In this document: positions 5,882 through 63,113 of the stretch, one piece after another
Numbering within the stretch: the first letter of the stretch is position 1
How the letters are laid out: each line of letters opens with the position of its first letter
DNA from: Sphaerolaimus hirsutus
Taxonomy: Eukaryota; Nematoda; Chromadorea; Monhysterida; Sphaerolaimidae
Reading direction: 5' to 3'
Assembly (NCBI GenBank): GCA_964036195.1
Contig: OZ038454.1
Span: 7,750,001 to 7,814,000, forward strand
DNA length: 64,000 nucleotides
Position numbers and translations under genes: made by a program
The notes under the pieces: generated by a model
What the model was told of the DNA's origin: nothing
Seen by the model: only the letters and a program-made list of their open reading frames with translations
Database searches by the model: none

Positions 5882-5965
5882 TGATAAAAACATTACTATA
5901 ATAGACATAATGGTATAATGGTAATAAAATACAATGTCACTAATCGTATGTGCATGAGTCATCAA

Positions 5966-6997: not shown

Positions 6998-7067
<70 letters not shown>

Positions 7068-10206: not shown

Positions 10207-10288
10207 TTAGATGTAGTTAGATACCTGTATTTTTTATTTTTTTTATTAATCAAATAATGTAAATAACAATGACAATGAATACATCATT

Positions 10289-13200
10289 CTACAAACGATT
10301 ATAACCAAACGGATATGTGCGAACAACCTTAGCTCCCCCAACACCAGGTGGAATGAAAAAACGCTTATTAGATACCGGTTTGTACAACTTTTGTCGACCA
10401 TCTAAAGTCACATTAAAATCTTTAGTCAGTATAAAATTTAATTCATTTACACCAAGTTTTTTAAGTGGGGTTTTCTCCAAAAGTGAAGTGACAGCATCAC
10501 ACATATTTTCATATGTCACAGCTGGTTTTCTATTTCCATAGCCTTGTTCATCCACTTCTGCAGAACTTGCAAAACCACGTAATCGTACGGTTCTATAAAT
10601 TTCACCGGTAATGCAATGTCTAGCTGTATAGGCATACTGCTTCGGCTGAAAACAATAAAGATAATAATAATAAATTATCGAGGAAATTGTCAATCAATAA
10701 ATTAAAACAATCCAATAACTCACGCCAACAATGCAAACATGATCTAAATGATATTGATCCTTTAAAACAGGTGTTAATTGACCCAAGTAATGCCCACAAA
10801 GCTCTTGCATATTGGACCCATCCAATGTCATTATTGAGTCACTATAACAACAAATTTTCAAATTTTTAACATTAGTGATATATTGAACAAATGATACTAA
10901 CGTGTCTGTGTAAAGTAATGATTCCTCCGGCATCCTCAGCATAGCTTCATATAATTCAACTCTGGCATAACCAGTTACCAATGCTGTGATAATTGGCAAA
11001 CTAAAACCATTGTTTGGACCAACGTGTCCTAGACTTGAGTCCTGTTCAATTGAATGTTGTAACATGACAACTGATTCATCTCCCAATTTAGATGCATCTG
11101 CTGATCCAAAATGCTATAAAAGAGTTTTACTTTACACTTTTGACATGCTATTCATATTATCATTATTGTAAAATATAACATACTTGTATCCAATGTACAT
11201 TTACATTTGGATTTTCCAGCATTTGTAGAAGACTGGCACGATCATTGTAAAAATCAGTGTTCATATTTCCTTTCTTCTGAGCAAACTTGCCAATTAATGA
11301 GTTGATCATCAATTTAGCAACCGAACGTCTTACAGGATTTGGTTGAAATGATGTTGATGGAATTCTTATACCAAAACGTTCATCAATCTCATCTGAATAT
11401 TCTTCTGCAGTTTTGTTCGGCGGTATATCTATAAAACAACTATCAGTTTCCAAATATATCAATATAAATAAATAAATAAATCAAATAAACATACCACTTG
11501 CTTGACATTTCAACTTGTAAAATTCGAGCATGAATGCACTAATAAGGCCCGAGTGCGGACCCCTCTCCTTTGTCCACACACGTGGTTCGTAAATGTGCGC
11601 AGAAATAATCCGTATGACCTTCAAACCAGCATGCTTAATCGCAGCACTCAATTCAACCTAAATAATTAATAAATACTTTAATAATAATAAAATCAAACTG
11701 ATATTTTAATCATACAACATACTGTAGTCCATGTCCCTCTAAAAATTTGTTCATCAAATGAATGTGTACATTTGTGCATATTTTGTTCAATACAACAAGC
11801 TGCACATGTACTGTAGAAAATTTTCACATCACCATTTGGCAATGAAGCTCTAAATGGCAATGGCGGTATATATATATCACCTCTTGAATAGTGTACCCAT
11901 GCTTTTGCAACACCAAAATGATTCTGCAAATGTTTAAAATAATAAGAGTCTTGAATATAAAACGCTATTTAAACATTAAAAGTATAACAAACAGACCAAA
12001 ATCCACTCATTTAAATCACCATAAATTGCGCCTTCAGACCATACTTTGCCAGGTCCTTGTGCCATTGGTCTCATCAAACACATTGCTGGATATAGACTAC
12101 AAAAGTCCAAAAAATCTGCATTTGGCTTGCTTATATGCATGTTACTATACATCCCCACTTGAAAGGTATCAATTCGTCCACCTGAAACAAAATATAACAA
12201 AAAATAACCACTTTTTAAAAATCATAATTAAACATTTTAACTAACCAAAATTGGCATCATATACATTTAAAGGTTTATCCGTCAATGCGGCTGTGAAGAA
12301 CTGTTTCATTAATCTATTTGTACTCAAAATATTGCGACACTCATGTTCCCAGTAAATATCATAATGTATTGGCGAAACAGATTTTGCAATTTTATTTGCA
12401 CGTAAATAGTCCAATTCTCGAACTTGTAATGGAGTTTTGCCACCGAGCAATGTAAGTGGCCTATAAAAATAAGATTATAGTATATTATAAATAAATACTT
12501 ACTAAATGAAAATATGACAAACCTCATGGCAGGTATATGACTTGTACATGTTGGACATGCGTGCCAAAAACAGCCATGGATATCAATCAATGCTGCAATT
12601 CTATCGGAGTTTGGCTCAAATTCAACACCATCCACTTTGAAACTTCGTGAATTACAATTAACGATCATTTCACGACCATTGCCCGCATGTTGAACGTGAG
12701 TCTACAAATTGTGGATAATTCATTACTATCACTATAGAGTTCATAAAAATAGTAATGTATAAAGCTAACACCAAAATATCGGCCATATGCTGTCAAAAAT
12801 GCTGTTGCAAAACGACTATTGCGATCAACTAGACTTTCACCACGATAAATTGACAATGTATTTTCTTGTAGGTATCGTGCTGAAAAATACAAGCATAAAA
12901 CTCAATTTTGACATTAAACCATTTTCAAACTATTAACTAACTCTGAAAAACTCTAAGTGTCAATCCTGAAATTGTAAATGTGCCTGTCTCTGCAAAAAGA
13001 TCGATGCCAACTAATTTAATTAGCTCTTCACGAAATCTCATGGCAGCAAAGCTCAATGCATAGCTGTCTCTTTGGCAATAAATAGACATCTCCTGTGCCA
13101 CAGGAAACACTTTGTCATAGTGTTCATCGTGATATTTTTTAAATTCTTCAGTGTTTCTTCCATCAACAGGAAACTCCCATGCTGGTCTCAAATGACAATA

Positions 13201-15118
13201 TACATGTTGAACATTCAACTCGTTCATGTCATAGCAAAAAAACCTGCATATTTTATATGAAAAATAAAAAAACCATTTGAGTACCATCAATATCATTAGT
13301 AAAACTAACGATTTTGGAATTGGAACCTTGAATGATTTACACAAATTCGCCAATGATGTTGGTATGTAATTGGCCCAACAAATCATTCTAATTCCACATT
13401 TGAACTTGGCATATAAAATTCTATTTCCACGTGTAAAGGTTTTTTCAGGTATTTTACACTGACTTGCAAGTGCAGATAGTAAAAACTGAAAGTCAAATCT
13501 ACTTCCAAAGTGACTAATGATTGTGGCATCAGCATTTTCTGTAAATATATGACAATTATTATTAATGTCAATGTGATAATTTTACGTTATTAAAATTAAA
13601 CTTACTAAATGAAAAAAACTGTTCAACAAATTCTTGTACACAGTTTTCACCTTGCCATACAGAAACCCTTGCCTGACCACATTTTCGATTTGTACATGCA
13701 TCATACATGTCCTTGCTCCAGCATTTTGAACATGAACTATGTTGATAAATAAACTTAAGAATGATAAATATTTTAATTAACTTGATCAATCAACCTACGT
13801 TAAAGTGGTCAATAAGTTTGCCACATGTCGATTTGTCTCTTCACATATTCTTGTTTCCAGGTCCAAAAAAACAATTGATCGTGATCGTTGAACTTTTTTT
13901 GGTTTCAAAGTTGGCAAAAAACAGTTCAGATGTGGGATATCAATAGGAACTTGTTGTTTGCAAAAATTACAAGTATAAACCCGCTGTTCTGAACACTTGT
14001 GCGTATTAACAAAAGAATCTTCATGTTTCTTCAGACTATAATAACGGCCGCATCTAAAACAAAGACGTTGACTGTAACACTTTGGTACTCCCCATCTGCC
14101 TGTACCTTGCACATGTAAGTGTTGCCTATGAAATGTTCATATGTTTGCATTATGTGTTCAATAAAATCAAAACCTAAAATTAATAACCAACTCAAAACAA
14201 TCTGTTGAAAAAAATTTCCTCAAGCAATTTGAACATGATTTCTCCTGACCAGCAATCTTGGGACAATCTGCAATCAAACTGGTGTGGCCAACAGTAGATC
14301 CAGTTTTCACAAGTCCACAATAATTGCAACGATATGGACATATATGTCTGAATATGAATATTAATTAATTATTATGTAATAGTATATCATAATCTAAATA
14401 TAACTTACCGCTTCAAATTAAACAAAACCTCCTTGCAAGTCTCACAAAATCCTCTAGCACTCAAAAATGTCACAATACCCCATATCACAGCAAAAAATAT
14501 ATATCCACCATGATGATATAAACATAAATTTATCATGTGATCATTAATTGGAGGATTATCTCGACCCCATATCTGTTTTTTTGTCCCCTCCATATAAACT
14601 CTTATTGAAATGCCATCAAGCATTGGCACTCTTTCTATACGATCTAAAAACTCAATGCCTACAAAAACATTTGCTGGTGGTAATTCTGCCTCTATTCTAA
14701 GTTGAACAGCAAGACGTTCAAGTTCTATTGAAGGGCTTTTTTCACAGTGACGCCTCACACGACGCCAATAATTTTGGGATTCTTTTCCTCTGTTTGGATT
14801 AAATGCTCTATACTTAGCAACTGCCAAACATATGGCATAAATCAATGTCTGCTCTGAAGCAACAACATATTCACAATGCTTATTAGATTTACCCTTTAGT
14901 ATAGATTGACGTAGACGCGCAGTTGTAACATCCTGATAAACCGATCGACGCTTGCCCCCACTCAATCTACCGATTGTACCAAAATTTCTTAAATTACTTA
15001 AATCCTCTTTATCTGATTCACTTTCTGAAGTTGCCTGAATGGCCAAAATACCACTTTCATTTGGTCGAGTTGCTGTTGTTGGATAATGAGAACAACCTGG
15101 CTGATCAGACATATCCAT
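10289..15118 (-). CDS. Protein-primed family B DNA polymerase (Maverick PolB)
   Basis: Sixteen exons join in phase to about 1279 codons: 15118-14409, 14347-14192, 14125-13799, 13736-13606, 13538-13310, 13243-12942, 12879-12770, 12701-12523, 12460-12246, 12181-11997, 11923-11723, 11657-11495, 11428-11184, 11113-10902, 10841-10724, 10645-10289. It replicates the element DNA. After about 240 residues of accessory N terminus come Cys-rich finger-like motifs, then exonuclease motifs: Exo I (FLDLET), Exo II (HFGSRFDF) and Exo III (YCQRDSY). Polymerase motif A reads FCSLYP, motif B is KLMINSLIGKFAQ, and motif C (the DTD type) is divided by an intron at 10842-10901. All catalytic acids expected of the family are present, so the enzyme looks intact. 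Introns are short and AT-rich with GT-AG ends. Start chosen at MDMSDQPG; an upstream join to the next gene is out of phase. Confidence 0.93.
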
Positions 15119-18474: not shown

Positions 18475-18992
18475 ACCGTATTACCTCAAATTAACCCCCC
18501 CCCCTTGGATTAACCCCCACCTCGAAATACCCCCCCTAAAATTCGGCTGAGGAAATAATAACCCCCCCCTCGAAATACCCCCCTAAAATTGAGTGTAAAA
18601 AGAACGTACATGACAAATACCGTAGTTTGTGATCTGTACAATGCAGAACACACGTGAAANNNNNNNNNNNNNNNNNNNNNNNNNNNNNNNNNNNNNNNNN
18701 NNNNNNNNNNNNNNNNNNNNNNNNNNNNNNNNNNNNNNNNNNNNNNNNNNNNNNNNNNNNNNNNNNNNNNNNNNNNNNNNNNNNNNNNNNNNNNNNNNNN
18801 NNNNNNNNNNNNNNNNNNNNNNNNNNNNNNNNNNNNNNNNNNNNNNNNNNNNNNNNNNNGTATGGGGAATTTCCGAAAATTTCTGGCGAAATAATAGACC
18901 CCCCTCGAATAAACCCCCCCTCGAATTATCCCTCCTCAAATTTTGCTGGTGAAATAAAAAAAACCCTGGGGGTATTTCGAGGTAATACGGTA
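18475..18992. mobile_element. Foldback element with TACCGTATT ends
   Basis: Ends read TACCGTATTACCTC and GAGGTAATACGGTA, followed inward by C-rich and G-rich runs (CCCCCC with CTCGAAATA). It is nested in the GGTGCC hAT-like element and contains the N gap. Relatives lie at 27896-28342, 37365-37772 and 63114-63450. Confidence 0.75.
18660..18859. other. Assembly gap, 200 N
   Basis: Exactly 200 N, a standard scaffold placeholder; true size unknown. Confidence 0.99.
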
Positions 18993-19562: not shown

Positions 19563-20112
19563 TAACTGACTGAGTTAACAAATTGTTCAACTGGCTGTAC
19601 TTTCTCATTTCAACTTCATTTCGCTACCATATGTGCACCAAACTTCCCAACTCAAGTGGATTAAAGCCTTCAAAGGATTTTCTGATGCTAAAGCTCACAG
19701 ATGGCAACATATTGCACATTGTTACCTAATTGCTTTTAATGCACACCTGGTAAAATGTAGCATATAAAACATGTAAAGATATGAATGAAACAAAAAGGAA
19801 TGAGCATTTGAAGTATAAGGTGAAATGCAGCATTTGAAATGTGTAAAAAATAGGTATGAAACAAAAATCAATCAGCATTTGAAGTATAGCACCAAATGGC
19901 ATTTGAAGTGTGTAAAATGAGTGGTATAACAAAATGACATGATGGCATTTGAACTGTAGCACAGTAGCATTTGAAACAGTGCATTTCAGCATTTGAAGTG
20001 TGCTTTTTCATAGCATTTGAAACGGTGCACCCTCGCCGTTGGGGCGCGGTACCGTCCTTGTGTTTCGCCACGGCGCCATTTTTCCTGGCGCTGTTCCATA
20101 ACGGATCATGCG
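19563..20112. repeat. Degenerate GCATTTGAA repeat array
   Basis: From about 19730 to 20030 the word GCATTTGAA recurs roughly every 25-40 bp with GTGTAAAATG-like spacers. No gene is seen. Flanking DNA is unremarkable. Confidence 0.7.
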
Positions 20113-20350
20113 GACAGTCCCAGGCCCTCTAAAAGACCCAGTAAAATGACCCTGTACAATGCGATGTGTCATGAAAAAAAACCCTGTAAAAAAAATCTGT
20201 AAAATGTCATGTGTCATGTAAATGACTCTGTAAAGACACAGGGTCTTTTACATGACACCTGACATTTTACACGGTCTTTTACTGACACGTGAAATTTTAC
20301 GGGGTCTTTTACACTTTGCAGGGCATTTTACAGAGTCTGGGACTGGCACA
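20113..20350. mobile_element. Intergenic relative of the GTGCC foldback (introner) family
   Basis: Ends read CAGTCCCAGGCCCT and GAGTCTGGGACTGGCAC, and the interior repeats CTGTAAAATG-type words in both orientations. This matches the genic introner-like elements in organisation but is diverged and lies outside any gene. Confidence 0.6.
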
Positions 20351-20444
20351 TGATAACTCCCCCCCCATTGTCACTGACATAAATACTGACACTTATTTCG
20401 AATAGACGGCGCCGTGTGGGCAATGCGCATTTAGTGCAACCACT

Positions 20445-20724
20445 TAGTGATGGAATGGCGCCAAACGGCGCCAGCGCCCTGGCGCCATTGGCATGTGGCG
20501 CCCTTTTCAGTGGCGCCATATGGCGCCTGGCGCCATTATTTCGGATGGCGCCATGGCGCCATGACGCCCTTGACGCTTGGTGCCATTTTCGCTGGCGCCA
20601 ATTTTTGGAATGGCGCCATGACGCCTGGCCCCATTCTCTCTGGCGCCCTTTGGCGCCCGGCGCCAATTTTTTGAATGGCGCCATGACGCCTGGCGCAATT
20701 TTTCCTGGCGCTTTTCCATCACTA
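20445..20724. mobile_element. hAT-like MITE filled with GGCGCC
   Basis: Ends TAGTGATGGAA and TTTTCCATCACTA enclose a dense array of TGGCGCCA-type words. Flanking 8-mers CAACCACT and CACCCACA match at six positions, so the duplication is decayed. ORFs rich in APWR here are translations of the word. Confidence 0.8.
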
Positions 20725-20752
20725 CACCCACAAATCCCTAACTGATTGGGAT

Positions 20753-21634
20753 TAGTGATGGAATGGCGCCATGGCGCTGGCGCCATTTGAGGGCGCCAAA
20801 GGGCGCCGCGCCATGGCGCCATTGGCGCTTGGCGCCCTTTTTCTGTGGCGCCCTTGGCGCCTGGCGCCCACATTCTGAAAGGCGCCATGGCGCCCTTGGC
20901 GCTTGGCGCCCTTTTTCCGTGGCGCCCTCGGCGCCTGGCGCCCTGCTCAGCCGGGTTTCACGGTGAGTGCTGTGTAAACGAAAAAAAATGAAAAACGCAT
21001 CCGTGGATGATCTAAATTCGCCAGAAAAATGGACGGAGTGGTGTGAGTGGGTGGAAATCTTTCGTCCAACGGTTCATCAAATCTGTCTGACGGATCAGAA
21101 GACAAGAATGATGGACCGTATAACTTGCAAAATCATAAATAAACGGATTTAAATCGTTGCAATTAGGAAACATTGTTTGGAAAGGTCTATTTGTAATGAA
21201 TGGATTGTTGTCAAATGACAATTTCCATTGCGTTTGAATTCGTCATGTGGATTTTATTCAAAAATTTTTTGTTGCTAGCCTTGTTTTTGTTCATTACATC
21301 CTGGAGAACGCGAGTTAAGAAGTGAATGCGCGTACAATGGTACTGTAGAAACATTTTTAGCACACACATGGTGTTGTAGGCACTTTTTTATCCTGGCGCC
21401 CTTGGCGCCTGGCGCCCTATTTTCCAAATGGCGCCATGGCGCCCTTGGCGCTTGGCGCCCTCTTTCCGTGGCGCCCCTGGCGCCTGGCGCCCACTTTCTG
21501 AATGGCGCCATGGCGCCCTTGGCGCCTGGCGCCCTTTTTCTGTGGCGCCCTTGGCGCTTGGCGCCCACTTTCCGAATGGCGCCATGGCGCCCTTGGCGCC
21601 TGGCGCCATTTTGACTGGCGCTTTTCCATCACTA
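20753..21634. mobile_element. hAT-like MITE with GGCGCC arrays at both ends
   Basis: TAGTGATGGAA and TTTTCCATCACTA ends are flanked by a perfect 8-bp duplication ATTGGGAT (20745-20752, 21635-21642). GGCGCC word arrays fill about 200-240 bp at each end and surround about 430 bp of ordinary sequence with no coding capacity I can support. Confidence 0.9.
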
Positions 21635-31282: not shown

Positions 31283-31663
31283 GTGCCACTTCCAAACCGT
31301 GTAAAATGCCCTGTCAAGTGTCAAATGTCCTGTAAAATGTCAAAAGTCCTGTAAAATGCCCTGTGAAATGACAAATGTACGTTGGTAATTTTTCATGTCT
31401 TTTGACTAGTGATGGAAAAAGCGCCAGAACTTTGGCACCAAGGTCCAAAATAGTTTGGAGCTTTTCGAACACCAGCGCCAAGAGTCAGGCACTTATTTCC
31501 TGGCTCCACAGAAACATACCGCCAAGCGCCAATGGCACCCCAGCATAATAGCGCCAAGCGCCACAACGCTTTTTGCGTTGGCGCTTTTCCATCACACATT
31601 TTTTGACACCACATGACATTAGACATTTCACAGGGCATTTTACAGGGTCTGTGAGTGCCCCAG
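31283..31663 (+). mobile_element. Introner-like element forming cuticlin intron 2, copy A
   Basis: The intron starts GTGCCACTTCC directly at the exon end and stops GAGTGCCCCAG at the next exon. TGTAAAATG words run in both orientations. A younger TAGTGATGG hAT-like MITE (31407-31597) is nested in it. It is shared with copy B, so it predates the duplication. Confidence 0.85.
31407..31597. mobile_element. TAGTGATGG hAT-like MITE nested in the introner, copy A
   Basis: A TAGTGATGGAAAAAGCGCC start and a GGCGCTTTTCCATCAC end with internal AGCGCCA words. The equivalent insertion in copy B (43662-43903) retains a perfect CTTTTGAC duplication. Confidence 0.8.
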
Positions 31664-32313: not shown

Positions 32314-32934
32314 TAGGGTTCAAACGGGATTGACTTTTCGGGATCGGGATCGGGATCGGGATTCACTTTTTGAGATTTCGGGATCGGGATCGGGATCGGG
32401 ATTGGGGTTTCGGGATCGGGATCGGGATCGGGATTGGTTTTTTGAGATTTCGGGATCGGGATCGGGATCGGGATTGGCCGGGATTGGGGTCACGGGATCG
32501 GGATCGGGATTGGGATATGCATTTTTCCGGGATCGGGATTGGGTTCTAGGAATAGAGATTTTGGCCATTTTTATGGCATTCACAGTTGTTCATAAAGGTC
32601 TCAAAACACTGTTGGATGCCAGAAAAGTGGCATAAAATTGACGCTGCGGGTTTGCATCCACTTTTTTGCATGCAAAAACGTCATTATTTCACTTGTTATA
32701 ATTTCCACTAATTTTTCCGGGATCGGGATCCCGGACTTGGGAGTTTCTCGGGATCGGGATCGGGATTTGAAAATTTTCGGGATCGGGATCGGGATCGGGA
32801 TTGGTATTTTTGAGATTTCGGGATCGGGATCGGGATCGGGATTGGGGTTTCGGGATCGGGATCGGGATCGGGACTGGTAAATCCCGGAATTTCACGGGAT
32901 CCGGGATCGGGATCGGGATCCCGTTTGAACCCTA
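32314..32934. mobile_element. hAT-like MITE filled with GGGATC, inside a cuticlin exon
   Basis: Ends TAGGGTTCAAACGGGAT and ATCCCGTTTGAACCCTA, an interior of CGGGATCGGGAT words, and a perfect 8-bp duplication CCCATGCC (32306-32313, 32935-32942). Copy B shows the uninterrupted exon. RDRDRD-type ORFs across it are word translations. Confidence 0.97.
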
Positions 32935-37853: not shown

Positions 37854-38053
37854 NNNNNNNNNNNNNNNNNNNNNNNNNNNNNNNNNNNNNNNNNNNNNNN
37901 NNNNNNNNNNNNNNNNNNNNNNNNNNNNNNNNNNNNNNNNNNNNNNNNNNNNNNNNNNNNNNNNNNNNNNNNNNNNNNNNNNNNNNNNNNNNNNNNNNNN
38001 NNNNNNNNNNNNNNNNNNNNNNNNNNNNNNNNNNNNNNNNNNNNNNNNNNNNN
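37854..38053. other. Assembly gap, 200 N, between the duplicated blocks
   Basis: Exactly 200 N. It abuts the left end of copy B, so the duplication junction is not observed. Confidence 0.99.
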
Positions 38054-42897: not shown

Positions 42898-45800
42898 ATG
42901 GCCGCGCTTGTAAAGCTGTGTTTTATTGCTGCTGTTTTGGTGAGTGAAAAACTTCAGCTACGTGTGGATTCCTGTATTCTAGATGGACAATTTTCAATTT
43001 ACGTGCGACAGAAAAAATTTTTTGAGGATTTTTACAAGTATAGAAAACATCTTCAGTAAATTGGTGGAACCATGATTGATGGACGAATGTAGAGAAGAAA
43101 TGCGCCAAAAATTTACACCAAAAAGTAGTTTAAAGCACATTTGCATTTGCACAGTTTATTTACAACATAGTGTTATTGGCAGATCCTCGCTTCTATAATG
43201 GGTAGATTCGATTTATCGATGCTTTGTCGTATTTACGTAACGCACTGGTAACTAGAATGTCTAGGAAGTTTTTGACTATGTAAGCACAATTTTATATTTT
43301 TAACATTTTAGCATCTCGCCCATGGCCATAGCAATTTATATCCTTGACAGAATATTTTCTTTTGCCTGTGAAAAAACTTTCAAAACAATGCACCTACCAA
43401 TGCGAACTTGCCTCTTTTAAATCTGCAAAAACAACAAAAAAACACGCCAAAAACACCAGGCCCTGAGCAGCGCCATCCCAATAGACAACAGTCTAATCGG
43501 CTCGCCAGAAGTTGCATGTCTGTCAGACTCAATCCAGGTGCCACTTCCAAACCGTGTAAAATGCCCTGTAAAGTGTCAAATGTCCTGTAAAATGTCAAAA
43601 GTCCTGTAAAATGCCCTGTGGAATGGCAAATGTACGTTGGTAATTTTTCATGTCTTTTGACTAGTGATGGAAAAAGCGCCAGACCTTTGGCACCAAGGTC
43701 CAAAAGAGTTATGGTGCTTTTCGAACTTTGGCGCCAAGGTTCAAAAGAGTTATGGTGCTTTTCGAATGCCAGGGCCAAGCGCCAGGCATTTATTTCCTGG
43801 CTCCACATAAACATACCATCAAACGCCAGCCACATTATAATAGCACCAAGCGCCATAACACTGTTTGCGTTGCCGCTAGCGCCATGGCGCTTTTCCATCA
43901 CTACTTTTGACACCACATGACATTAGACATCTCTCAGGGCATTTTACAGGGTCTGTGAGTGCCCCAGGTCAATTTGAACACCGAGGCCGCGTGGAGTGGC
44001 CATTTGTATGTCAAGGAGCACTTTGCCGACGCCGACTGCAGAGTCACTGGCGATGGGCAGGGTCAGCTGGCTGCTATCAATTTGGGATTTAGCCAGTGCA
44101 ATGTGAAGAGATTCAGATCGGTGTGTTTGGGTGAGGGTGGTGTTTTGGGTGAATAATTACCCCTTGAACAATCCCCCCTCGCAAAATTCCCATCCTTTGA
44201 AAAAAACTTTAATAATTTCCCCTCTAGGTGTTTGTTGTGTCTAATTTGAACAAAAATGGCATCTTGCGTTGTTAATCAAACATTTCATGAGATAAGTTAA
44301 TAGAAACGTGTTTGAGAACTTAAAAAAGAACAATCCCCCCTCGAAAAGTACCCCCTCAGGAAAATTCCGATGAAAAAATAATTCCTCAGGGGAAAAAAAC
44401 GACCAAATTCCATTGAAATGTCAAATACCCCCCCCCCCAATAATCACTTCAGTTGGAACCGCGCGGCGTGTCCGTAGAAACCACTCTAGTTCTATCCTTC
44501 CATCCGATATTCCTGACCAAAGTGGACCGGGCATACCGCATACGCTGTTTCTACATGGAAGCGGATAAAACAGTCAGTTCACCATTGGAGGTCAGCGGAA
44601 TTACAACTGGATTTGCAACTTTTAATGTGCCAATGCCAACTTGCGTGTATGAAATTCGGGACGGGCCGGATTTCGAACAGGTGCCAATCCCAGACCCTGT
44701 AAAAAGCCATGTAAAATGTCAAATGTCATGCAAAGTGTCAAAAGTCATGGAAAATGCCCTGCAAAAATGGCAAACGAGTTGCCATTTTGCGGGGCATTTT
44801 CCATGACTTTTGACACTTTTCATGACATTTAACATTTTACAGGGCTTTTTACAGAGCCTGGGAGTGCCCCCAGAGTAGGTCGGTGCAGTTCGCGTTGTTG
44901 GGGCAGAGCGTTTATCACCATTGGGTGTGCGATACTGATGTGGGTGAGTTAGAGTTTTGTTGATGTTCAAACACAGATTCTGATACAGCAAAAATGGATG
45001 TGTGATGTGCCGTGAAGTGGCGTGATGTATCTTCATGGCAATGGTTTGAAGACTCTTCAGTATATTTGCCTATAGAGTGCGGTGACGCTTCACAGCGCTT
45101 CCCGAACCATGCAGAGTATGTCAAAACTGTTCGGGGGGTGCGCTTCACAAAGTTTGATTGTCGTGATGATAGGTGAAGTGTGTGGAAGACACTTCACCTG
45201 AAATTTCGTGTGATATGTGAAGCGACTTCACAGAGGCCGCTTAAAGCTAACTTCACAGCACATCACACAATTTTATACTGTTGGTTCCTTTCGACAGTTT
45301 TGCTTTTTATACCGATCAAGCAGTCCGAGAAACCCCCATGTGATTTTGCAATCACAAAAATGGACGATCGCTAGAACCCTGTAAGCAAAACACTAAGAAA
45401 ATTTCTCAGCAAACGATAGTGCTATCAATTGATATCCAAGCGTTGTTTTCATTGGGAGACTGCCAATTTCACCATATAATTAGGAAAAATTCACAGCACT
45501 CTTCCATCAACATTCTATGATACATACCACCACAGATGATGTCTTCTGCATGGTTGTCTACGATTGCAAAGTGTCTGATGCAGCAGGCACTAGAACCCTG
45601 CAACTGGTTAATGAAAATGGTTGTGCGGTAGATAAACATCTGTTAGATAACTTGGAATATCCAGCCGATCTAAGAGCTGTGAAAGAGTCCCATGTGTTCA
45701 AATTTGCTGACATGCCATCATTGGAGTTTAATTGCCAGATTGATATCATGATTAAAGATCCCGGATCACAGTGCGCTGTGCGTTTATTGAAAGTTTTTTT

Positions 45801-46553
45801 CATGTGAAAAAATGAGAAATAATTTTACGTTTTGAAATTTTACAGCGGCCGCAGTGTGCGCCACTTTTGCGATCAAAACGAGCTGTAAATGCGAATGCAA
45901 CTGAGTTATCAACACCAAAATGGAAGAAGTCAACTGATGATAATGCTGGAACAATCGATGTTGCTATACAACATCCGATGTTGGTTGGCGACATCGAGTT
46001 GAAAGACAAAGGTTATTTTGTCAATGATTTTGAAATATCTATTAGAATTGAACTAGTGATTGAAAAAGCGTCGTGATGACGCCTTTTCGAACCCCAGCGC
46101 CAAGCGCCAATGGCGCCATAGTAAAAGGCTAGCGCTTTGTTCCTGGCGCCACTCAAAAATAGCTCCGAGCGCCATGGCGCTTTTCATTAGTGTGGAGCCA
46201 CAGCAAGATGGCATAGCAACAAGCGCCATAGCAACCTTTCCTTTTGTGCTAGCGCCTAGGTCGAGCGCCATGGCGCTTTTCCCTTAATCAATTGGACAAA
46301 AATCTTGGCAATTAATCAAACCACAGACATCCCCGGGATGCTAAAGCCCACCCACAACGTGCAACAACAAGACAAACAGTTCTACCAGACAGCTAAACAA
46401 CATTTCAAAGAACGGGGACACTCAATAGATTGTCCCAGATCACAGCATATAATTATTGTCGCTGCGGTAGTTTTTTCGATTAGCAGTTTGGCTTTTGTTG
46501 GACTTTTAGCAGTGGTTTATAGTTGGAAAAGGACAAAAGAGCAGGATATGTGA
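42898..46553 (+). CDS. Cuticlin-type ZP-domain transmembrane protein, copy B
   Basis: Exons 42898-42939, 43460-43537, 43968-44120, 44453-44680, 44874-44943, 45536-45777, 45846-46011 and 46327-46553 join in phase to 401 residues. Cuticlins are secreted ZP proteins that polymerise into nematode cuticle. A 19-residue signal peptide (MAALVKLCF...) leads into the ZP domain. Family hallmarks are FHPIFLTKVDRAYRI, CFYMEADKTVS, GQSVYHHWVC, NENGCAVDKHLL, NLEY and CARPQC. A furin-type RSKR site follows the domain, then a linker, one membrane helix (IIIVAAVVFSISS...) and a short KRTKEQDM tail. Introns 2 and 4 are introner-like elements. A hAT-like MITE begins right after the stop. Length and domain order fit the family, and nothing is broken. 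Confidence 0.92.
43538..43967 (+). mobile_element. Introner-like element forming cuticlin intron 2, copy B
   Basis: Orthologous to 31283-31663: GTGCCACTTCC at the donor and GTGCCCCAG at the acceptor. A nested TAGTGATGG hAT-like MITE (43662-43903) has a perfect CTTTTGAC duplication on both sides. Confidence 0.85.
43662..43903. mobile_element. TAGTGATGG hAT-like MITE nested in the introner, copy B
   Basis: TAGTGATGGAAAAAGCGCC start, CCATCACTA end, and duplication CTTTTGAC at 43654-43661 and 43904-43911. Internal AGCGCCA/TGGCGC words. Confidence 0.92.
44681..44873 (+). mobile_element. 193-bp introner-like element, present only in cuticlin copy B
   Basis: It begins GTGCCAATCCCAGACCCTG and ends GGGAGTGCCCCCAG. 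CAG occurs on both sides. Taking it out as a GT-AG intron leaves exon length exactly equal to the uninterrupted exon of copy A (298 bases for the combined exon in both). The whole element folds on itself and repeats a TGTAAAATGTC-type word. Confidence 0.93.
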
Positions 46554-49004: not shown

Positions 49005-50632
49005 AATGGCGAAGGGACGCTTGGACTCGACGGCGTCGCGGCCGCGCACTGTATTCGTTGTTGCGCAAGAACGCGCTGCAAACGCTCAGCCGAACTTCAC
49101 GCACAGCGCGCCTTCAATGGCTCAGAGTTTGTTCCACTTTCTTCAAATGAAAACTTTTTCTTTTCCTAACTCTAGATGGCGCAATTATAAAGTAAATTTC
49201 CCTTTCCAGCCTTTCTGCAACAGCCGCAGTACTCGCCGCCAGGACTAGATTCATCAAATTATCCGAGCACTTCGATGGGGCACCCTACAACTTTACCTTG
49301 CTCTCCGCAGCACGGCGCCCTGGACTCGCTGCACACGAACCTAAGGTAGGCAAACAGTTTGTCACTGGCTCAGTGCTCGTTTACTTATTGGCTTTGGTCC
49401 AAGTGACACTCGTTTTGGCACATCCTCAAACAAATCGTAAAAAGAATGCCGATTAATTGAATCACCTCAAGGTATTTATGTTGAGATTTGTAATGATTGT
49501 AATTGAAGTCGGGAATTTGTTGTGCAAAACTCAAATTATGAAAACTGAAATTCGAATTATTCGAGGAGAAAAACCCTGCGCGTCCACAGGTACATGCGCA
49601 ACTACAACGTGTCCGACATGCGCTTCGGCGCGCCCGACACCGAGCGACTGGCTGCCGATTTGCCGCAGGCGTTGACCGTGCGCGCGTGCAGATTGATACA
49701 ACCAATCACGCCGCCCAGTGCGGAAAAAGTGCGGTGGGATGTAGGGTTCAAACGGGATTGACTTTTCGGGATCGGGATCGGGATTCACTTTTTGAGATTT
49801 CGGGATCGGGATTGGGGTTTCGGGATCGGGATTGGTATTTTGAGATTTCGGGATCGGGATTGGCCGGGATTGGGGTCACGGGATCGGGATCGGGATTGGC
49901 TTTTTTTCGGGATCGGGACTGGGGTCTAGGGATAGAGATTTTCGTCACTGTTCTGGCATTCACAGTTGTTCATAAAGGTCTCAAAACACTGTTGGATGCC
50001 AGAAAAGTGACATAAAATGGACGCTGGGGGTTTGCATTCACATTTTTGCACACAAAAATGACATTTTTTCACTTTTTATAATTTCCACCATTTTTTCCGG
50101 GATCGGGATCCCGGACTTGGAAGATTCTCGGGATCGGGATTTGAAAGTTTTCGGGATCGGGATTGGTATTTTTGGATTTCGGGATCGGGATTGGGGTTTC
50201 GGGATCGGGATCGGGATTGGCTTTTTTTCGGGATCGGGACTGGGGTCTAGGGATAGAGATTTTCGTCACTGTTCTGGCATTCACAGTTGTTCATAAAGGT
50301 CTCAAAACACTGTTGGATGCCAGAAAAGTGACATAAAATGGACGCTGGGGGTTTGCATTCACATTTTTGCACACAAAAATGACATTTTTTCACTTTTTAT
50401 AATTTCCACCATTTTTTCCGGGATCGGGATCCCGGACTTGGAAGATTCTCGGGATCGGGATTTGAAAGTTTTCGGGATCGGGATTGGTATTTTTGGATTT
50501 CGGGATCGGGATTGGGGTTTCGGGATCGGGATCGGGACTGCTAAATCCCGGAATTTCACGGGATCCGGGATCGGGATCCCGTTTGAACCCTAGTGGGATG
50601 TCAGTTTGTGCGAGGTTGTTGAGGTTTATAGA
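49005..50632 (+). CDS. 5' exons of an unidentified gene, copy B
   Basis: Same exons as copy A: ATG at 49005, Pro/Ser-rich exon near 49211-49345 ending at a GTAGGC donor, and the YMRNYNVSDMRFG exon from 49590. That last exon is followed at 49742 by an 851-bp hAT-like element, after which sequence resumes. If the exon ends at the GTGCGG donor at about 49727 the element is intronic; if it continues, the element interrupts it. The Arg/Pro-rich protein is not recognised. It may be the N terminus of the coding exons at 51065-53098 and perhaps of the SET gene. Confidence 0.5.
49742..50592. mobile_element. hAT-like MITE filled with GGGATC, copy B only
   Basis: Same ends as 32314-32934 (TAGGGTTCAAACGGGAT), perfect duplication GTGGGATG (49734-49741, 50593-50600), CGGGATCGGGAT interior. 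A 321-bp internal unit is present twice in tandem. Confidence 0.95.
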
Positions 50633-51064
50633 GTCATACCTACCCTACCCTAGCGTTCATGGCTGCAAGTGAAATTCGGCATGGAATAATGCTGTACAGT
50701 GCACACTGTACAAGTATGTGGGAGGATATTGGCTGGATTTTACACCAACACATCATGGCTTATTATTACAATACAATAGCATGAACAAATGGAAGCTTTT
50801 ACATCAACAATGTCTCAAATAAAAACAACCACGAATGGTAATAGTATGTGAAAGTGGTATATGCGTTCAAAAAATTGCAAAATACCTAGTGCATAATTAT
50901 AAAAACGTTTGCTGTTTAAAAAAAAGAAAAACTGCATAGATGCTTGCGTTTTTTAATTAAAAACCTAAGTTTTTAAACATTTTTGAAAAACTCGGCGATA
51001 CCTACCAGTAACATCTCCATTTGTGAGTTTACTCATTTAAATACAATCCGAATACACCCCGCAG
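50633..51064. other. Probable intron or intergenic interval
   Basis: AT-rich and gene-free, ending in a possible acceptor CCCCGCAG at 51064. Confidence 0.5.
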
Positions 51065-53098
51065 CAACCGCCGCGCGTCCAACTGCCGTGCGCCATGCGT
51101 CGAACGCCCAAAAAGCGCCGCCTGGGTGTTTTAATCCACCCGCCTCAACCGCAATACATCAACGTTATGGAGCCGCTCAAATCCGCACAAACTTACGCGT
51201 CCGCGAATGAACGCTACATTTGCCGATCCGGATTTCGATGGTTCAGTAGTTTCGGATGCTCAAGGACATCGGGTGCCAATTCCAGACCCTGTGAAGTGTC
51301 CTTTAAGATGTAAAATGTTATGCAAAGTGTCTGAATTCATGTAAAATGTCCTGTAAAATGGAAAACGTACGTGGGTCATTTTACAAGGAATTTTACGTGA
51401 TTTTTGACACTTTGCATGACATTTGACATTCTACAGGGAAATTTCAGGGTCTGGGACTGCTGCCAGGATACATGTGGAACTCTTGCGCCAGATCCGAACA
51501 GTTCACATCAAATGTAGTCGTCGAGAAGAATTCTACGCAAATTGCGGCGGCGATTGAAAAACTACCCGCGCCCAGAACTTTGTGGAGTTTTCCGCGCGGG
51601 TCCACGCACGTGTGCAAGAAAAAGAAAATTTATAATCCGCTGAACAAATTGATGAGATCCGTGCAAAGTTATGATCCGTGTGGAAATGCGCAAATGTGCG
51701 CTACTACTAGTGCGGAAGTGAAAGTTGATATTGATGTGAAGGAACACGGCAAAGTTGAGGTTCGTTTATCAGCAGAAACTTCGAATTGGGTAGGAGGATT
51801 AAACTCACCAACTATTATTTTATATTCAGTAATTCAGGAATTTTCAGTAATTTGAATTGTTTATTAACTCTGTTTATCTTAACGTTCACCTAACTTATTT
51901 TGCTTTTTTTGTTCTACCACACAAGAAAAAGTTATTTTGGACTATTCTTTAGACACTCACTGCTTTGCAGCTTTTTGAATGAGCAACAAATTCATTAAAC
52001 CCCAAACAGCGACCAAATATAATCGACCTACCTATTTTGAATGCTATTTAAACTTAAATAAAAAAACGAAATTTCTCCCAACTCAGCTGCCGCCAATCAC
52101 CGACTCCACACTCAATCGATGGTCGCAATCACTGGACGATGAAATCAAGTACGCTGAAGAAATTCTCAAACATCCATTGAAAGAGTATACGAGACCGTTG
52201 AAACCTCGTTTTACATTCAACGGTGTTTACAAACCTTGGACGCAAGTGTGTCAGAGAGTTTTGCCTTTTGGATCGTGGGCTAACAGCTGCGCTAGGTGCG
52301 TTTTTGAGCTCGTTTTTCCATTTTTAAACCCTTATTGCGGTGTAGAAGTCTCGATCTTAGTCTCGATTCTCAGTCTCTATACCGATAATTTTCTGGATTT
52401 TGCGATCCCGAAGTCCCGATACCGAAAATTTGAAAAGCCAATCCCGAAAAATATCTCTAATCCCAATCCGGGAAAAATATGCAAAATTATATGCAAATAT
52501 ACCAGTTCACGGCCATCTAAATGTGTTTTGAGACCTTTTTATGAAAATCAGAGAAAACCCCTGAATAACTTCCTCCGAAGTTCCGATCTCTAATCCCGAT
52601 CCCAAAAAGTCGATCCAGTTTGTTCGTAACTGCACAGAAGGAAGGCATAACTTTTTGCCGTACAGATATTTATGTCATTTTCATTGTTGACTTTTCCAAA
52701 CCTGGTGTGCATATGCCAATTTAAATGTGAGCTTGTGAGCTCAAATCAGCCATTTCAAAAACTGATAAATTCAATTCCGCAGAGTCAACGTGCCCTACAG
52801 CGGGTCGCCGCGGCGCGCGCACGATCCATTTTCATTCCTGGCGCACAAAAATCGCTCAAATCTGCGCTACGCCAAAAATCACTGGCTTTTATTGCGACGG
52901 AAACAAAGGGAACTGAGAAAAGTGGCGGTCGGCTGCAACAGGTCGCCGAACAGAATCAGGATGAAGTCGCCCAATGGCAAGGGGGTCAGGCAGAAAAGAA
53001 ATGCAGTGATGGATGATAGAGTTTTGGCTTGTCTGTCGCTCGAAACTCAGTATCAATGGTGGATTAAGGGCGATCGGTTAGATTGGTTCGGGGTTTAA
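51065..53098 (+). CDS. Unidentified gene, internal and 3' exons
   Basis: Exons 51065-51272, 51467-51759, 52087-52295 and 52783-53098 join in phase and end at a stop. The protein is basic (RRTPKKRRLG, KKKKIYNPLNKLMRS, LRYAKNHWLLLRRKQRELRK) and has no domain I can name. The gap 51273-51466 is an introner-like element. The last exon might instead use an internal donor (CAG/GTCGCC at about 52940) to reach the SET exon at 53528 in phase, which would make all of this one SET gene; I cannot decide. Upstream it probably joins the exons at 49005-49740. Confidence 0.55.
51273..51466 (+). mobile_element. 194-bp introner-like element in the unidentified gene
   Basis: GTGCCAATTCCAGACCCTG at the donor and a GGGACTGCTGCCAG end at the acceptor. 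Spliced out, the frame continues from the SRTS codons to YMWNS without a shift. TGTAAAATG words run in both orientations. It is more diverged than the COG8 and cuticlin copies. Confidence 0.85.
52340..52620. mobile_element. Decayed GGGATC-word hAT-like relic
   Basis: Scattered ATCCCGA and CCCGATACC words in an intron, without clean ends; probably an old relative of the GGGATC family. Confidence 0.5.
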
Positions 53099-53527
53099 TC
53101 CGGCATTATTTGATCATCTTTGGTGTAATTAGGTTTGTGCCGGTTCGACATAAACAGTAATGTGTCATGTATGTACGTACATGGGAAATGAAAATCCCGA
53201 TCAAACTGCAAATGCATATTCTTAGATAACTTCTGATGTTGCATTTATTGATAATTATTCTCTCTCTTGAAAGTTGGTCACACGTGCCAAGCCCAGTGAC
53301 ATTCACTTTCCTTACTGCGCAAAATTTATGCTGACCATATTGGCATTATGATCACTTGTGATAAAAATGAGAGTGTCACGCACATGATTGACTCAGTGTG
53401 ACTCAGCTAAAAATACAATGCGCGGTATTCGAAGCAAGCCGACCGAAACAGCATTAATGACAATATCGACAAAAATTACTGCAAAATGATCACACTACGC
53501 ACTATAAAAAAATCAAAAAATTCCCAG

Positions 53528-54493
53528 GCCACCCCTTTCCCTGGGCGTATCGTCAATCGACCGGGTTGGTGTGTTTGTCGCTGATTTCGTGCCCAAAGGA
53601 CGCCTACTGCTCGAATACGCCGGAGAAGTTGTCAGAAAACATTTGGCTGACATCCGGGAACAGCAGTATGCGAAGAAGGTTGGTTTGGTGGTTTTGTGGT
53701 GGGTGGGTGTAAATGTGAGGGGTAGAAAAGGGGTGGAGATATTTGATAATAAATACTTTAATATTTTATGTATTGACTAGGGATGGCCGGTATTTTTTCA
53801 CCGTTTTTTATATAAAAACGGTCGTTAAAAAAACATTTTTTTGGTCATCCCTAGTATTGACATTTTAATCAAGCGGTAAAATAGATTTTTCGCTATTTAG
53901 GGATGGAAAAATGTGTTGTTGTTTTTATCACCTACTCCATTAAAAAAATATTGCACAATACCTCGTGAATTCGTACACAAAATTTTGTTTTTTTTAAACT
54001 ACTTTTTAAAAAACGCCGGCCACCCCTACCTCCACATCCGATGACCTGTCATTTCTGTCGTTTAAATTCCCCGATCCGTAAAAAGACTAAAAAATCCTTT
54101 ACCTTTCCCTCTAATTAGATTTTTTTTACACAGACCTGCATGTCCGACGGCAGGACCTACATGTTTGCGCTCGACGACGATTTTGTAGTCGATGCCACCC
54201 GATTTGGAAGTTTGGCTCGATTTGCGAATCACTCTTGCCAACCGAATTGTGGCGCTAAGGTCGTCACGTTTGATGAAAAGCGCAAAATATTGCTCTTCGC
54301 GAATAGAGAGTAGGTTTCGGTGTTTGGGTCGATTTGACATTTTGTTCAATTTGACATTTTTGTGTAATTTTGTCACTTTTGCAGCATCGAGGCCGGGGAG
54401 GAGTTGACATATGATTACAAATTGCCATTTGATAAATCTGATCGAGTGGCGTGTTTTTGTGCTGCGTCAAATTGCAGGAAGTACCTGAATTGA
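53528..54493 (+). CDS. SET domain plus post-SET, SET1/MLL-like histone methyltransferase (N terminus unresolved)
   Basis: Exons 53528-53678, 54134-54309 and 54385-54493 join in phase. SET enzymes transfer methyl groups from SAM to histone lysine. Visible motifs are GVSSIDRVGVFVADF at the domain start, LLLEYAGEVV, YMFALDDDFVVDAT, the pseudoknot motif RFANHSCQPNC, and ELTYDYK. The end CFCAASNCRKYLN is a post-SET zinc motif (CxC and C), which points to SET1/MLL enzymes and away from E(z) types, although DDDFVVDATR resembles the latter. The exon at 53528 begins in phase 2, so more exons lie upstream, perhaps those at 51065-53098. Two hAT-like MITEs lie in the first intron. C. elegans homologues would be in the set-2/set-16 group. 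Confidence 0.85.
53778..53853. mobile_element. 76-bp minimal hAT-like MITE in a SET intron
   Basis: Ends TAGGGATGGCC and GGTCATCCCTA, perfect duplication GTATTGAC (53770-53777, 53854-53861). Among the shortest hAT-like elements here. A second TAGGGATGG-type end at 53898 and GCCACCCCTA near 54028 suggest a decayed neighbour. Confidence 0.93.
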
Positions 54494-55132
54494 AGTGATT
54501 GGAAATGCGATAATTTAACTTTGAATGTGGCCATTTCTTCAGCTGACCAGTTGTTTTTTGGTCATTATTTTCTAAATTCTCAGGGATTTTCTTTTACAGT
54601 TACTGATTTTACTAATAATTGTAATTTCAAATTAGTTATGGAAAAATGTTTTCTTCTTTTGAAACTTTGTTTTTGTTTGAACCACAACAGCTTTATTGCA
54701 CTATGCATTTCGTAAGCTTCCGCTGTGTATCTCTTATTTATAGTCCAGTTGCATTTTGGTCTCAACTGTATATATTGCACATGTTTTTTGTCTGCATTTT
54801 GTTCAAAGATTCAACCTTAGTTTGTTAACACTTTTCGCACTGCTGTCTTTATTACTTATTACATAAGCACCTAGGCTTCCCTTCATTCAACGGCTGATAA
54901 AAAATAGACATGTAAAAGCTAATTTATATCCGCCGGCAGACATGTCCGCGAACCACGTCGTTGCATTACTAAAAATGAACAAAAAAATCAGATTTGAAGA
55001 ATCACTTTTATTTCATCATATTTACCGGTCGATTCATCACACCAATTGTTTTCAATTATCATTAAAATGGTAAAAATACTCTAACTAGCATACTCTCAAA
55101 TTGTCTTCAAGTCAAGAACTTTCACCAACTGG
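54494..55132. other. Intergenic interval between SET gene and COG8
   Basis: AT-rich, no repeat or gene recognised. It must hold the SET 3' end and the COG8 promoter. Confidence 0.6.
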
Positions 55133-58100: not shown

Positions 58101-61100
58101 CAAACTATACGCCATATTTTGTGGCGTGTCCTTACCGGATGGCACTAACAAAATTTTTACCCATTCTTACAGGTCACGCTGCCACAGGTTCTCAAAGTGG
58201 TGCCTTTTCTGCGGCGTTTGCACGTTTTCGAGGAGCATGAATTGCGTATTCGGTTTTTGATGGTGAGTTGTCGTTCACAGGCTTATCCAATTTGATCATT
58301 GTATTAATTGCTTTCAAGTGGAAATCAGCTGCCAATTCCGCACCTTTTCGCGTTGCAAAAATGGCAAGTCACTTGTCAAAATAATACCAACTCAGTTCCA
58401 CAGTATGCTTTGTCCACTCAATTTCGCAATTGATTCCTAAACGCGCAGGCACGCGAGCGCTACCTAGCGCCTATTTTATCAAGCATTCCAACAGAAGACG
58501 CATTCCAGCACTGTTCCAAGTACATGGAACTCGCCCGCGTGCATTTATTCGACATCGCCACCCAATACAAGGCTGCATTCGCGTCCGAAATGCAAGATTT
58601 GAGCCACTATGACGTCACTGGAATGGCAGACCGCGGATTTGGCGTGTCTGGACAAAAATTGGCCCCCGTGAATTTGCAAATGATTTTCAATCAATGGCTG
58701 ACTGCCAAAGTGGAGGCGAGTTTTTTTTAGTTGACCGGCAGTTTTGGAAATGGGGAAACAATTGCTAATAAAAAATACGCTATTTTTGTCGTGTGGTAAT
58801 TAATTTAACAGCACCGGAAAAGTGTAAACATTCCTTTTTCTTCCAAAGGCAAAGTTTTCCTTTCCGTTTTCCGAGAGCTGAAAAAATTTTACATTTCCGT
58901 TTTCCTTTGACCTTTTCCTTAGATAAGGAACTGTTCCCCAAGGTGCAAACTGTATTGACTTTTCCGGATCACGATTGGCATTAGAATTTATAATGAGATT
59001 GAAAAAGTGACAAGGTGTTCTTGTGTCAGTTTGTCCTTGTGACATTTCGGGCTCTGACCAATTATCAGTGACACAGCGTAGTGTGACAAAATGCCCTGTG
59101 ACAAATTGTCCTAACGTCACCCAGGAAGTTCTGTCGGTCATCTCAACGGACGCGTGCCGCGCGGCGGCGCTGGGCCCGTCGGGTCGCCTGGATTCACTTC
59201 TTACGCAGGCAATGTATTTCGGCGCGTCTTTCGGTAGACTCGGCGCCGATTTTCGGCCCAGTTTGGTGCGCATTTTCACCAAAGCCGTCACTGATGACAT
59301 GGATAAGCGTTTGCATAGGGCAGAGGAAAAGTGGGTTCTTTTGTGTTGTGAGGATTTTGGTGTCTGGATTTTTAATATGGCATAGCCACATTTTACAGGA
59401 ATCATACTAAAGCCCTGCCCGTGTAGAGTATTCTATGTGTTTTGCGTCCAAGCCCTGATGGCACTTCTTGAAGTCTCGCTGAATTTAGACACTCATGAAA
59501 TTTGACTGATTACAAAAAAATCAGCACGCCCCTTCCATATCCGAATCCCATGTCCTTTCCAACCATCTCTAAAGCGCAACGCAAAATGAACTAAAACGGA
59601 CATCAAATGCACATTCCCCACCCAGGATGCTATCGTGCGTGGGCGACGCGAAGACGTTCAGCCAGGTGCCAATCCCAGACCCTGTAAAAAGCCCTGTAAA
59701 ATGTCAAATGTCATGCAAAGTGTCAAAAGTCATGAAAAATCCCCTGCAAAATGACAACTCGGTTGCCATTTTGCAGGGCATTTTCCATGACTTTTGACAC
59801 TTTGCATGACACTTGACATTTTACTGGGCTTTTTACAGGGTCTGTGAGTGCCCCGAGGTGAACTCTGGCCACGGCATGGACCTGATGCTGCCGCAGGCGG
59901 GCGGCGGCGCTCGCGCCCTGCTCTGCTGGCCCACGCTGGCCGCCTACACGAATGCCGTCGCCGCAGCGTTCAATGCGCACAGGAACTTTTTGCCGCTCAA
60001 TTGCGCCGTCGGAGTGGCTGGCAAGTTGAATGCCGGCCTCGGGAGCGTCGCTGAGGCCGTGCTGCTTGTGGCCAGGTGTTTTTTTTGTGGGAGATTAGTG
60101 TTTTCCGCAGATAATTGTGTGGGAAATGGGTATTTGTATGCTTTGCGATGAGAGGGGCCAAGTACACATCTGAACCCATTACACATCTAGACCTGCCGCC
60201 CATCTAATATTACCCATTACCCGTCTAGGCTCATTACACATGTTGTAAGCCCATATATTTAATTCAAGATTTATTTATTTCACTTATTTATCCCTGTAAA
60301 ACCCTGAATAAATGGTTATACAGAAAGATTGAGCAGTTTGAGAAGATTGACCTTAAAACGTGTTTTATTTCTAACAGAAAATCTGGAGTAGAACACAGGG
60401 GTCTCGAATGGGGGGGGGGTTACCCCCCCCCCCCCAAACCGCCCAGCTATCTATCTATCCCGCAGGCCGCTCAGCTATCTATCTATCCCGGAGGCAAAAT
60501 TTTGGGCTACTACCCCCTAACCCCCCCCCCCCAAATCGCCCAGCTATCTACCTATCTGGAGCGATTTTTCAGAAACTACCCAAATTTTCGCTCAAAATCG
60601 CCATTTTTCATACCTATATATATATATAGATTTTCAACTCCAAAATCACTAGTTCATGCATCTAACTGCCTATTTCAGCTATTTTAAGTACTATATGCTC
60701 TTGTATACCCATTTTGAGCTATTTTACACCTACTTTTAGCGATTTTTCTCCCTTTTCGTCCTCCTATCCCCCGCAAAAGCCTATATATCGGACCACCACA
60801 ACCCCCCCAACGCCCCCCCCCCAGAAAATTTTTCAGCTATCTATCCCTCCGGAGGAGCGATTTGCTATCTATCCAACCACCCGGAGGGTCAAAATTCAAG
60901 ATACCCCTGGTAGAACATCTTACACCTTGTCAAACGTTTTTCACGCTTCACACCATTCCCATCGATAATCTGATGCCATTCACAGCTTTCAAGGACCCCT
61001 TTCCTATCCAGAAATAGGCCGCCAACCGTCACCGAGGCGCAAGTGCGCACGTGCTGCGAGTTGTTGGCGAGCTCGTTGCCCACCTCACTGAACGCGATGT

Positions 61101-61559: not shown

Positions 61560-61837
61560 ATATCTAGTGCCTTGCTAAAATGCCCGAATACTCATTTGGT
61601 GGCAGTCTCAGAAAAAATAACATTTTAGTCAAGAATTAAATTATCCCTTATCGCTGTGATAAATTTTTAGCTGATTCTGAGAATTTTTGGTGAAAGCATA
61701 ACTTATTATCGATGGCTTGGAACATTGTGTTTTGGATCTATGGAATGGGTATAGGTTTAAATAATTTTGTGTCTTTGAATTTTGTTTATCTGTTGTTGTT
61801 GTTTTTTACCGTAAAGCGCTGATCAAGCGAGGGTGAA

Positions 61838-62013
61838 CTAATACGCACATCTGCCCGTTACGCACATCTGCCTGGTACGCACATCTGCCTGATATGCACA
61901 TCTGCCCGGTACGAACAGAGCATCAGCCATGTGCGTACCGGGAAGATGTGCGTACCGGGCACAACTTTGTGCAAAACGGGCAAATGTGCGTAACGGGCAG
62001 ATGTGCGTATTAG
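61838..62013. mobile_element. Foldback element made of a 16-bp word
   Basis: The word ACGCACATCTGCC(C/T)GT recurs several times and then in inverted form. The outer arms CTAATACGCACATCTGCCC and complement are almost perfect over about 29 bp. Small size and no coding capacity suggest a MITE. Confidence 0.8.
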
Positions 62014-63113
62014 GCCCCCCTCGATCAAGCCCCACCCCCTTTAAGCCCAACAGTGGTTGTGAAAGATATTTTCAAATGTTAAATCTTATTTTTGGTTTAC
62101 AGTGCATCTGCAAAGTAGAAATTATCATTTTCACATATCACATCATTTCGCCGTTTAACAAAAAGTTGAGCGAACTTGTCTGCGGCTTCCAAAAGATTAA
62201 GATACATTCTAAATCATCCAAAATGTTCGAAAATTTGGAACCTTGTAGGAAAATATTCGAGAAAAAAAACATTTATGTGAAAAAATCGTAATTATCTTGT
62301 GATTAATCGTAAACGCCCAGCTATCTATCTTTCCCGGATGCTATCTACTTTCTCCATTTTCTTCCATGTACACCCTATATTGAGTCCCTGCGACCCTCCC
62401 CCAAATATTTTTTTAGCCATCTAACCCTCTGCAGGACCGATTTGGTATGTATCCAACCCCCCAGAGGGTGAAAATCTAGGATACCCCCTGTACAGGATTA
62501 ATTTGACTACCGGGTAGCGCAGGATGAGCACCGGGTTGAGATGAGCACCGGCACAGTGCCTCTGTAATAATATCAACATCATTGTGTAAGCGAGAAAAAA
62601 AACATGAAAATTTTAACACGAAACATTGAGAAAATCTTCCAAGTGTCGCTGATCGGCACTTTTCGGTATTTGCATGATATCGGTGGTTGTCTGTGATATA
62701 AAGGTATTATTGCTATCTGATACGTGACCGAGTCTATTCAGACGTATTCTATTTGAAAGCGGTGTGTAAATTTACACAGACGTCAGAAAAATGAAGAAAA
62801 AAAACGTTGTTTTTTTCGATTGCGTATAGGAAACTCGCTAAAACGGAACGGAGATGTTCCGATACGAAATCACGTTTGAATCACAGAACTTATGGCGAAA
62901 CATACGCAGGGCGTAAACGGTAATAAATCAACCACAGAGCGACTTCTTCATAATTTTTTTTGCAGATACCTAGATCGTAAACACTATTCCACCAATGGGC
63001 AAAACGAGTTGATTGAATGGCGCCATTTTTGTTTGAACCCACATTTCCGTTCGGTGCTGACGCTTGGCGTTATTTCCGCACAATTTTGCTCTGGATAGCG
63101 CCGCTGTGTTACC

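Follow-up and report, generated by a model that had tools for sequence, protein, structure and literature searches.

The 64-kb window of nematode DNA analysed here (the whole stretch, 64,000 nucleotides) contains two copies of a cuticlin gene, A and B, and a coding exon of copy B holds a 193-bp foldback element that fits exactly as a GT-AG intron (44681-44873, + strand). We propose that this element is a MITE-derived introner that brings its own GT donor and for which the duplication of a 3-bp target provides the acceptor AG, a reading that we consider very probable. It is based on the element itself and its family, the ends of the copies, one empty site, the reading frames that are restored when the copies are removed, and purifying selection around an element-derived intron, and from these sequence features we infer that the element is actually spliced.

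A preliminary description of this DNA had reported a 193-bp foldback that begins with GTGCC and ends with CCCCCAG inside a coding exon of copy B, with CAG on both sides, and had given GAACAG followed by AGTA as the empty site in copy A; all three of these claims were confirmed. Specifically, the body of the element spans 44681-44870 and is followed by the right copy of the target CAG (44871-44873), and the left copy forms the final bases of the upstream exon (44678-44680, + strand). The coding exon of copy B thus consists of a 5' part of 228 nt (44453-44680, + strand) and a 3' part of 70 nt (44874-44943, + strand). Copy A has no foldback element at its empty site (GAACAG|AGTA, 32985|32986, + strand). 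An inverted-repeat search placed the foldback arms at 44680-44766 and 44785-44871, each of 87 nt and 90% complementary, and this search together with the comparison of ends showed that the element has terminal inverted repeats, a trait of MITEs. Folded as RNA with short flanks, the foldback at 44681 reaches -131.1 kcal/mol, compared with -53.2 +/- 4.7 kcal/mol for 200 shuffled sequences (z -16.6; 0 of 200 as good), and its structure is far beyond chance. Such a foldback would place donor and acceptor side by side at the base of the stem.

The corresponding exon of copy A, which had been described as uninterrupted, is in fact broken by a hAT-like element of 621 bp (32314-32934) with the ends TAGGGTTCAAAC and GTTTGAACCCTA and with 8-bp direct repeats CCCATGCC, the right-hand one of which ends 43 bp before the empty site. 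In its assembled form, copy A is probably disrupted by this insert. The exact agreement in exon length that had been claimed, 228+70 nt in B versus 298 nt in A, does hold, but only after the 621-bp element has been left out of A. With the hAT-like insert omitted, the foldback shows a trait of most introner families, namely that insertion and splicing together leave the length of the mRNA unchanged (228+70 = 298 nt). The hAT-like insert was itself considered as a further introner and was rejected by eye because its ends lack GT...AG. It has a relative at 49742-50592, flanked by GTGGGATG, and both are filled with simple repeats of the GGGATC type; we take the 8-bp repeats and such ends of these two inserts to recall hAT elements.

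The gene is identified as a cuticlin by the CUT_C (E 4.1e-44) and CUT_N (E 5.9e-12) domains in a 189-aa part of its protein. The model of copy B was made by hand, with exons at 43460?-43537, 43968-44120, 44453-44680, 44874-44943, and 45536-45806 and with provisional outer limits, and removal of both element introns gives a single frame of 266 codons. If the 44681 element were retained in the message, translation would meet a stop after 41 codons. Of 439 candidates, 102 proteins matched 258 aa of the copy B protein at E <= 0.001; the top match, an unnamed metagenome protein, is 58% identical, and the cuticlins of Plectus, Onchocerca, and Aphelenchus are 56-57% identical. In an alignment with 10 of the 102 matches, the intron 1 junction is gapless in all 10 homologs, and all 10 also align across the 44681 junction (FEQ|SRS), where they are shorter by one (n=1), two (n=8), or three (n=1) residues. 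Since copy A, which is without the 44681 element, has the same length as copy B, this difference of one to three residues was not made by the element.

Intron 1 of the cuticlin gene is an older copy of the same element in both gene copies. In copy B it spans 43538-43967 (+ strand) and includes a nested short inverted-repeat element at about 43662-43890, and in copy A it spans 31283-31663 (+ strand) with a related nested insert at about 31407-31590; the nested element shows GATGGAAAAAGCGCCA near its end. The element in intron 1 is common to A and B and is therefore older than the A/B split. Over 800 nt of coding sequence, 78 nt of which precede intron 1, and with the 621-bp insert left out of copy A, the two copies differ by 37 synonymous and 5 non-synonymous changes (dS 0.248, dN 0.008), a dN/dS of about 0.03. 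The cuticlin coding sequence is thus under purifying selection between A and B, both of which carry the element-derived intron 1, and selection on the coding sequence downstream of intron 1 is hard to explain unless the element is removed. This argues that the intron 1 element is spliced and, by analogy, that the younger copies may be spliced as well.

Searches of the 64-kb window by Blast and nhmmer assigned the copies to one family with five independent insertion sites. A 24-base pattern of the 5' end of the element, allowing three or fewer mismatches, had four matches in the window versus 0.00 expected (100 shuffles). Besides the two cuticlin sites, there are copies in the COG8 gene (59666-59857, + strand), where the element forms an intron, and upstream of a SET-domain gene (51273-51466, + strand), where it forms a probable phase-1 intron. 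The fifth site holds a diverged, longer copy outside recognised genes (20109-20349, minus strand), with no acceptor AG at its end, and a repetitive open frame of 209 aa (20328-20957, minus strand) extends into the left end of this copy. The 44681 and 59666 copies are 90.8% identical from end to end, and the likeness within the family runs up to both splice sites at the three sites read as introns (44681, 59666, and cuticlin intron 1 in A and B) as well as at the probable intron at 51273. Four of the five independent insertions in the window are genic, that at 51273 only probably so, and all four lie in the sense direction with GT on the left and AG on the right. The probability that at least four of five insertions fall in coding sequence is 4.6e-4 at an assumed coding fraction of 10% and 0.03 at an assumed 30%; as the coding fraction is an assumption and one of the four is only probable, we put no weight on these figures. 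A pattern scan of prokaryote genome contigs gave no matches, and the one match of the pattern scan in a viral contig was taken as chance, as only about 27 bases are alike and the remainder appears, by its open frames, to be a phage contig. Rfam and tRNA scans of the window returned 0 and 0 matches. Another foldback, of about 196 bp (61828-62023), is built of repeated TACGCACATCTGCC-like units.

By reading frame and homology, three of the sites read as introns, namely cuticlin intron 1, 44681, and COG8. COG8 is identified by its Dor1 domain (E 8.6e-71, residues 1-338 of the assembled protein), and its exons join in frame across the 59666 element, while retention of the element would lead to a stop inside it. 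The junction corresponds to residue 353, which is beyond the Dor1 model and in a linker that is variable in the six homologs compared, with homology picking up again beyond it. The nearest of the six matches, from a search limited to scoring the 7,999 candidates with the most shared words, is from Plectus sambesii (40%), and a PDB search with part of COG8 gave no matches. The host is most probably a nematode that has no near kin among the proteins searched. At the 51273 site, the exons downstream of the copy encode a SET domain (PF00856, E 1.5e-24; gene region 51000-54500), and the frame directly to the right, which is the best by codon usage, reads SCARSEQF, which resembles the WDR5-binding motif of KMT2/SET1 proteins. 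To the left of the copy, the three frames differ little in codon score, and the one with the slightly higher score would not be continuous with the frame on the right, so the 51273 copy is only a probable intron upstream of the SET-domain gene; four variants at the 51-kb position had no Pfam match above the cut-off.

The triplets just outside the ends of the element are CAG/CAG at 44681, CAG/CAG at intron 1, CAG/GAG at 59666, CGG/CAG at 51273, and CAT/CAT at the 20109-20349 copy. The pair at intron 1 requires an element that is one base shorter than the others, as strict register gives AGG for the right triplet. The 3-bp repeats are therefore exact and in register at two of the five sites (CAG and CAT), exact with the one-base-shorter element at one, and carry one mismatch at two. 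It should be noted that CAG on both sides is also expected from the splice consensus, in which an exon ends in CAG and the acceptor is CAG, so that CAT/CAT is the only independent evidence of a 3-bp duplication. Hence the claim that the acceptor AG stems from the target duplication finds its support mainly in the CAT/CAT copy, and it is weakened by the imperfect repeats at COG8, 51273, and intron 1. Target duplications of 3 bp are found in the PIF/Harbinger and CACTA superfamilies, and in our judgement the termini GTGCC and GGGGC combined with the targets CAG and CAT offer no clear match to the hallmarks of either.

An AG is present on the right in the four genic copies and is missing there in the 20109-20349 copy. 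Of the AGs no more than 60 nt from the right end, none but the terminal one keeps the frame at all three well-supported sites. The frame is broken in both cuticlin B and COG8 by TTTTTACAG, which lies 19 nt upstream of the right end, but is kept in intron 1 by the corresponding TTTTACAG with its AG at -18. At individual sites other AGs are in frame as well, in cuticlin B and in COG8 at 9 nt before the right end and in intron 1 at 18 and 30 nt before it. The acceptor of the element is C-rich, and the few other acceptors compared in these genes (CACTTCAG, CACCACAG, and CCCACCCAG; n=3) are no more T-rich.

In the mechanism that we put forward, a non-autonomous foldback DNA transposon (MITE) acts as an introner. 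The element would be mobilised by a transposase and would insert at a 3-bp target that, as a rule, is duplicated upon insertion. The left end of the element would bring the splice donor GTGCC, and where the target is CAG, the right duplicate would give the acceptor AG while the left CAG would give a good exon end (CAG|GT). With the donor in the element and the acceptor from the duplicated target, an insertion in coding sequence would make an intron, and removal of this intron would restore the original mRNA. The same arrangement means that only correctly oriented insertions at NAG targets would become introns. The original suggestion that the insertion of a transposon had made a GT-AG intron in copy B is supported further by two more independent sites that read as introns (cuticlin intron 1 and COG8) and by the shared sense orientation of the four genic copies (one only probable).

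This mechanism must be weighed against other readings of the same ends and sites. The element may carry both splice sites, including its own terminal CAG, and insert without any target duplication. The 44681 site is equally well explained by GTGCC...CCCCCAG inserted between ACAG and AGTA, unconfounded evidence of a duplication comes from a single copy, and at three of the five sites a mismatch or a shifted end has to be allowed. Nevertheless, the 20109-20349 copy ends in CAT and not in CAG and has CAT on its other side, and the inverted repeats of the 44681 element stay in register as far as the base that precedes the CAG triplets, and we regard an insertion without duplication as unlikely. 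Very unlikely, in our view, is an ancestral ordinary intron at 44680 that copy A lost precisely, for instance through recombination with cDNA, and that was colonised by the element in copy B. The empty site in copy A is the one found in the window, and a single presence/absence pair cannot polarise the change; moreover, in the available text of a survey of 104 nematode genomes, intron losses are far above gains (PMC9169325). Yet the element spans the entire intron from GT to AG with no older intron sequence left, the same end-to-end fit is seen at COG8 and, the nested insert aside, at cuticlin intron 1, and copy A retains the neighbouring intron 1, whereas cDNA-mediated loss is described in the same text as often taking neighbouring introns too (PMC9169325). 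It is because element and intron fit end to end, and not from an outgroup, that we infer the direction of change to be a gain in B and not a loss in A. That the copies are plain gene-disrupting MITEs, their carrier genes pseudogenes and the GT...AG ends coincidental, we hold to be highly improbable: the hAT-like element in copy A does show that gene-breaking insertions occur here, but the dN/dS of about 0.03 was obtained with the element-derived intron 1 in both copies, the frames are restored at three sites, and cuticlin and COG8 are otherwise well conserved.

A different question is whether A and B are duplicates at all, as they may be two haplotypes of one locus that were scaffolded end to end, in which case the element would be an intron presence/absence polymorphism. 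This reading alters the history and not the mechanism, and we give it serious weight while leaning slightly against it. Two gaps in the window, 18660-18859 and 37854-38053, each measure exactly 200 N; the homology of B to A sets in at roughly the base that follows the second one, and that of A ends 1.1 kb before it, an arrangement that would be expected of uncollapsed haplotypes. The cuticlin dS of 0.248, on the other hand, is high for alleles, an argument that is tempered by the existence of hyperdiverse nematodes such as Caenorhabditis brenneri. Since copy B starts exactly at a scaffold gap and A and B may be alleles, the timing that had been claimed for the gain, after the duplication, is not established. 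For the introner proposed here, we find it somewhat more probable than otherwise that it represents an active or recently active nematode family that makes introns in numerous genes, that is still polymorphic for intron presence or absence between chromosomes or recent duplicates, and that has its acceptor derived from a duplicated CAG.

A mechanistic parallel is offered by the introners of Micromonas and Aureococcus, which were reportedly described by Huff, Zilberman and Roy in 2016 as inserting like DNA transposons, with the target duplication giving one of the splice sites; those introners are from other hosts and are said to have a longer target duplication, and we liken them to the present element by description and not by sequence. 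A broad survey found introners in 175 of 3,325 genomes, with copies ranging from 5 to over 2,000 per family, and its available text names only two groups with introners among animals and land plants, both of them animals (PMC9860276; Gozashti et al., 2022). As here, the similarity of the introns in that survey runs to near both splice sites, and many families have terminal inverted repeats and short target duplications; the present case differs from those described in the text in its nematode host, in an element that is a foldback in its entirety, and in a target duplication that is likely of 3 bp (PMC9860276). The string "nematod" has no occurrence in the main text of that paper. In root-knot nematodes, Tm1 (Mutator/foldback) is likewise foldback or MITE-like and has paralogous loci with and without the element, but its target duplications are mostly of 9 bp and intron formation is not described in the available text (PMC3169594); this comparison, too, is by description and not by sequence. 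New introns in nematode genes were also reported from the 104 genomes mentioned above, where, according to the text available, the source sequences of the gains detected in Caenorhabditis were not found (PMC9169325), whereas in the present window the source can be recognised in a repeated element.

A literature search of open-licence PubMed Central papers found no nematode introner in a title or at the start of an abstract, which agrees with the earlier remark that no nematode family had been described. The element seems to be of a known kind in an apparently new host lineage, and going by the two animal groups named in the available text of PMC9860276, it may extend introners to another animal group. 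The origin of new introns is an old question, and the local record is unusually clear: within 64 kb lie the source element, several occupied sites, one vacant site, and a copy that lacks an acceptor, which would make the mechanism directly testable in an animal. The window also includes a Polinton/Maverick-like region (3124-14136, minus strand), in which a possible ATPase-like frame noted by eye (7098-7613) had no Pfam match above the cut-off and in which the genes encode an integrase core (PF00665) and a type B DNA polymerase (PF03175).
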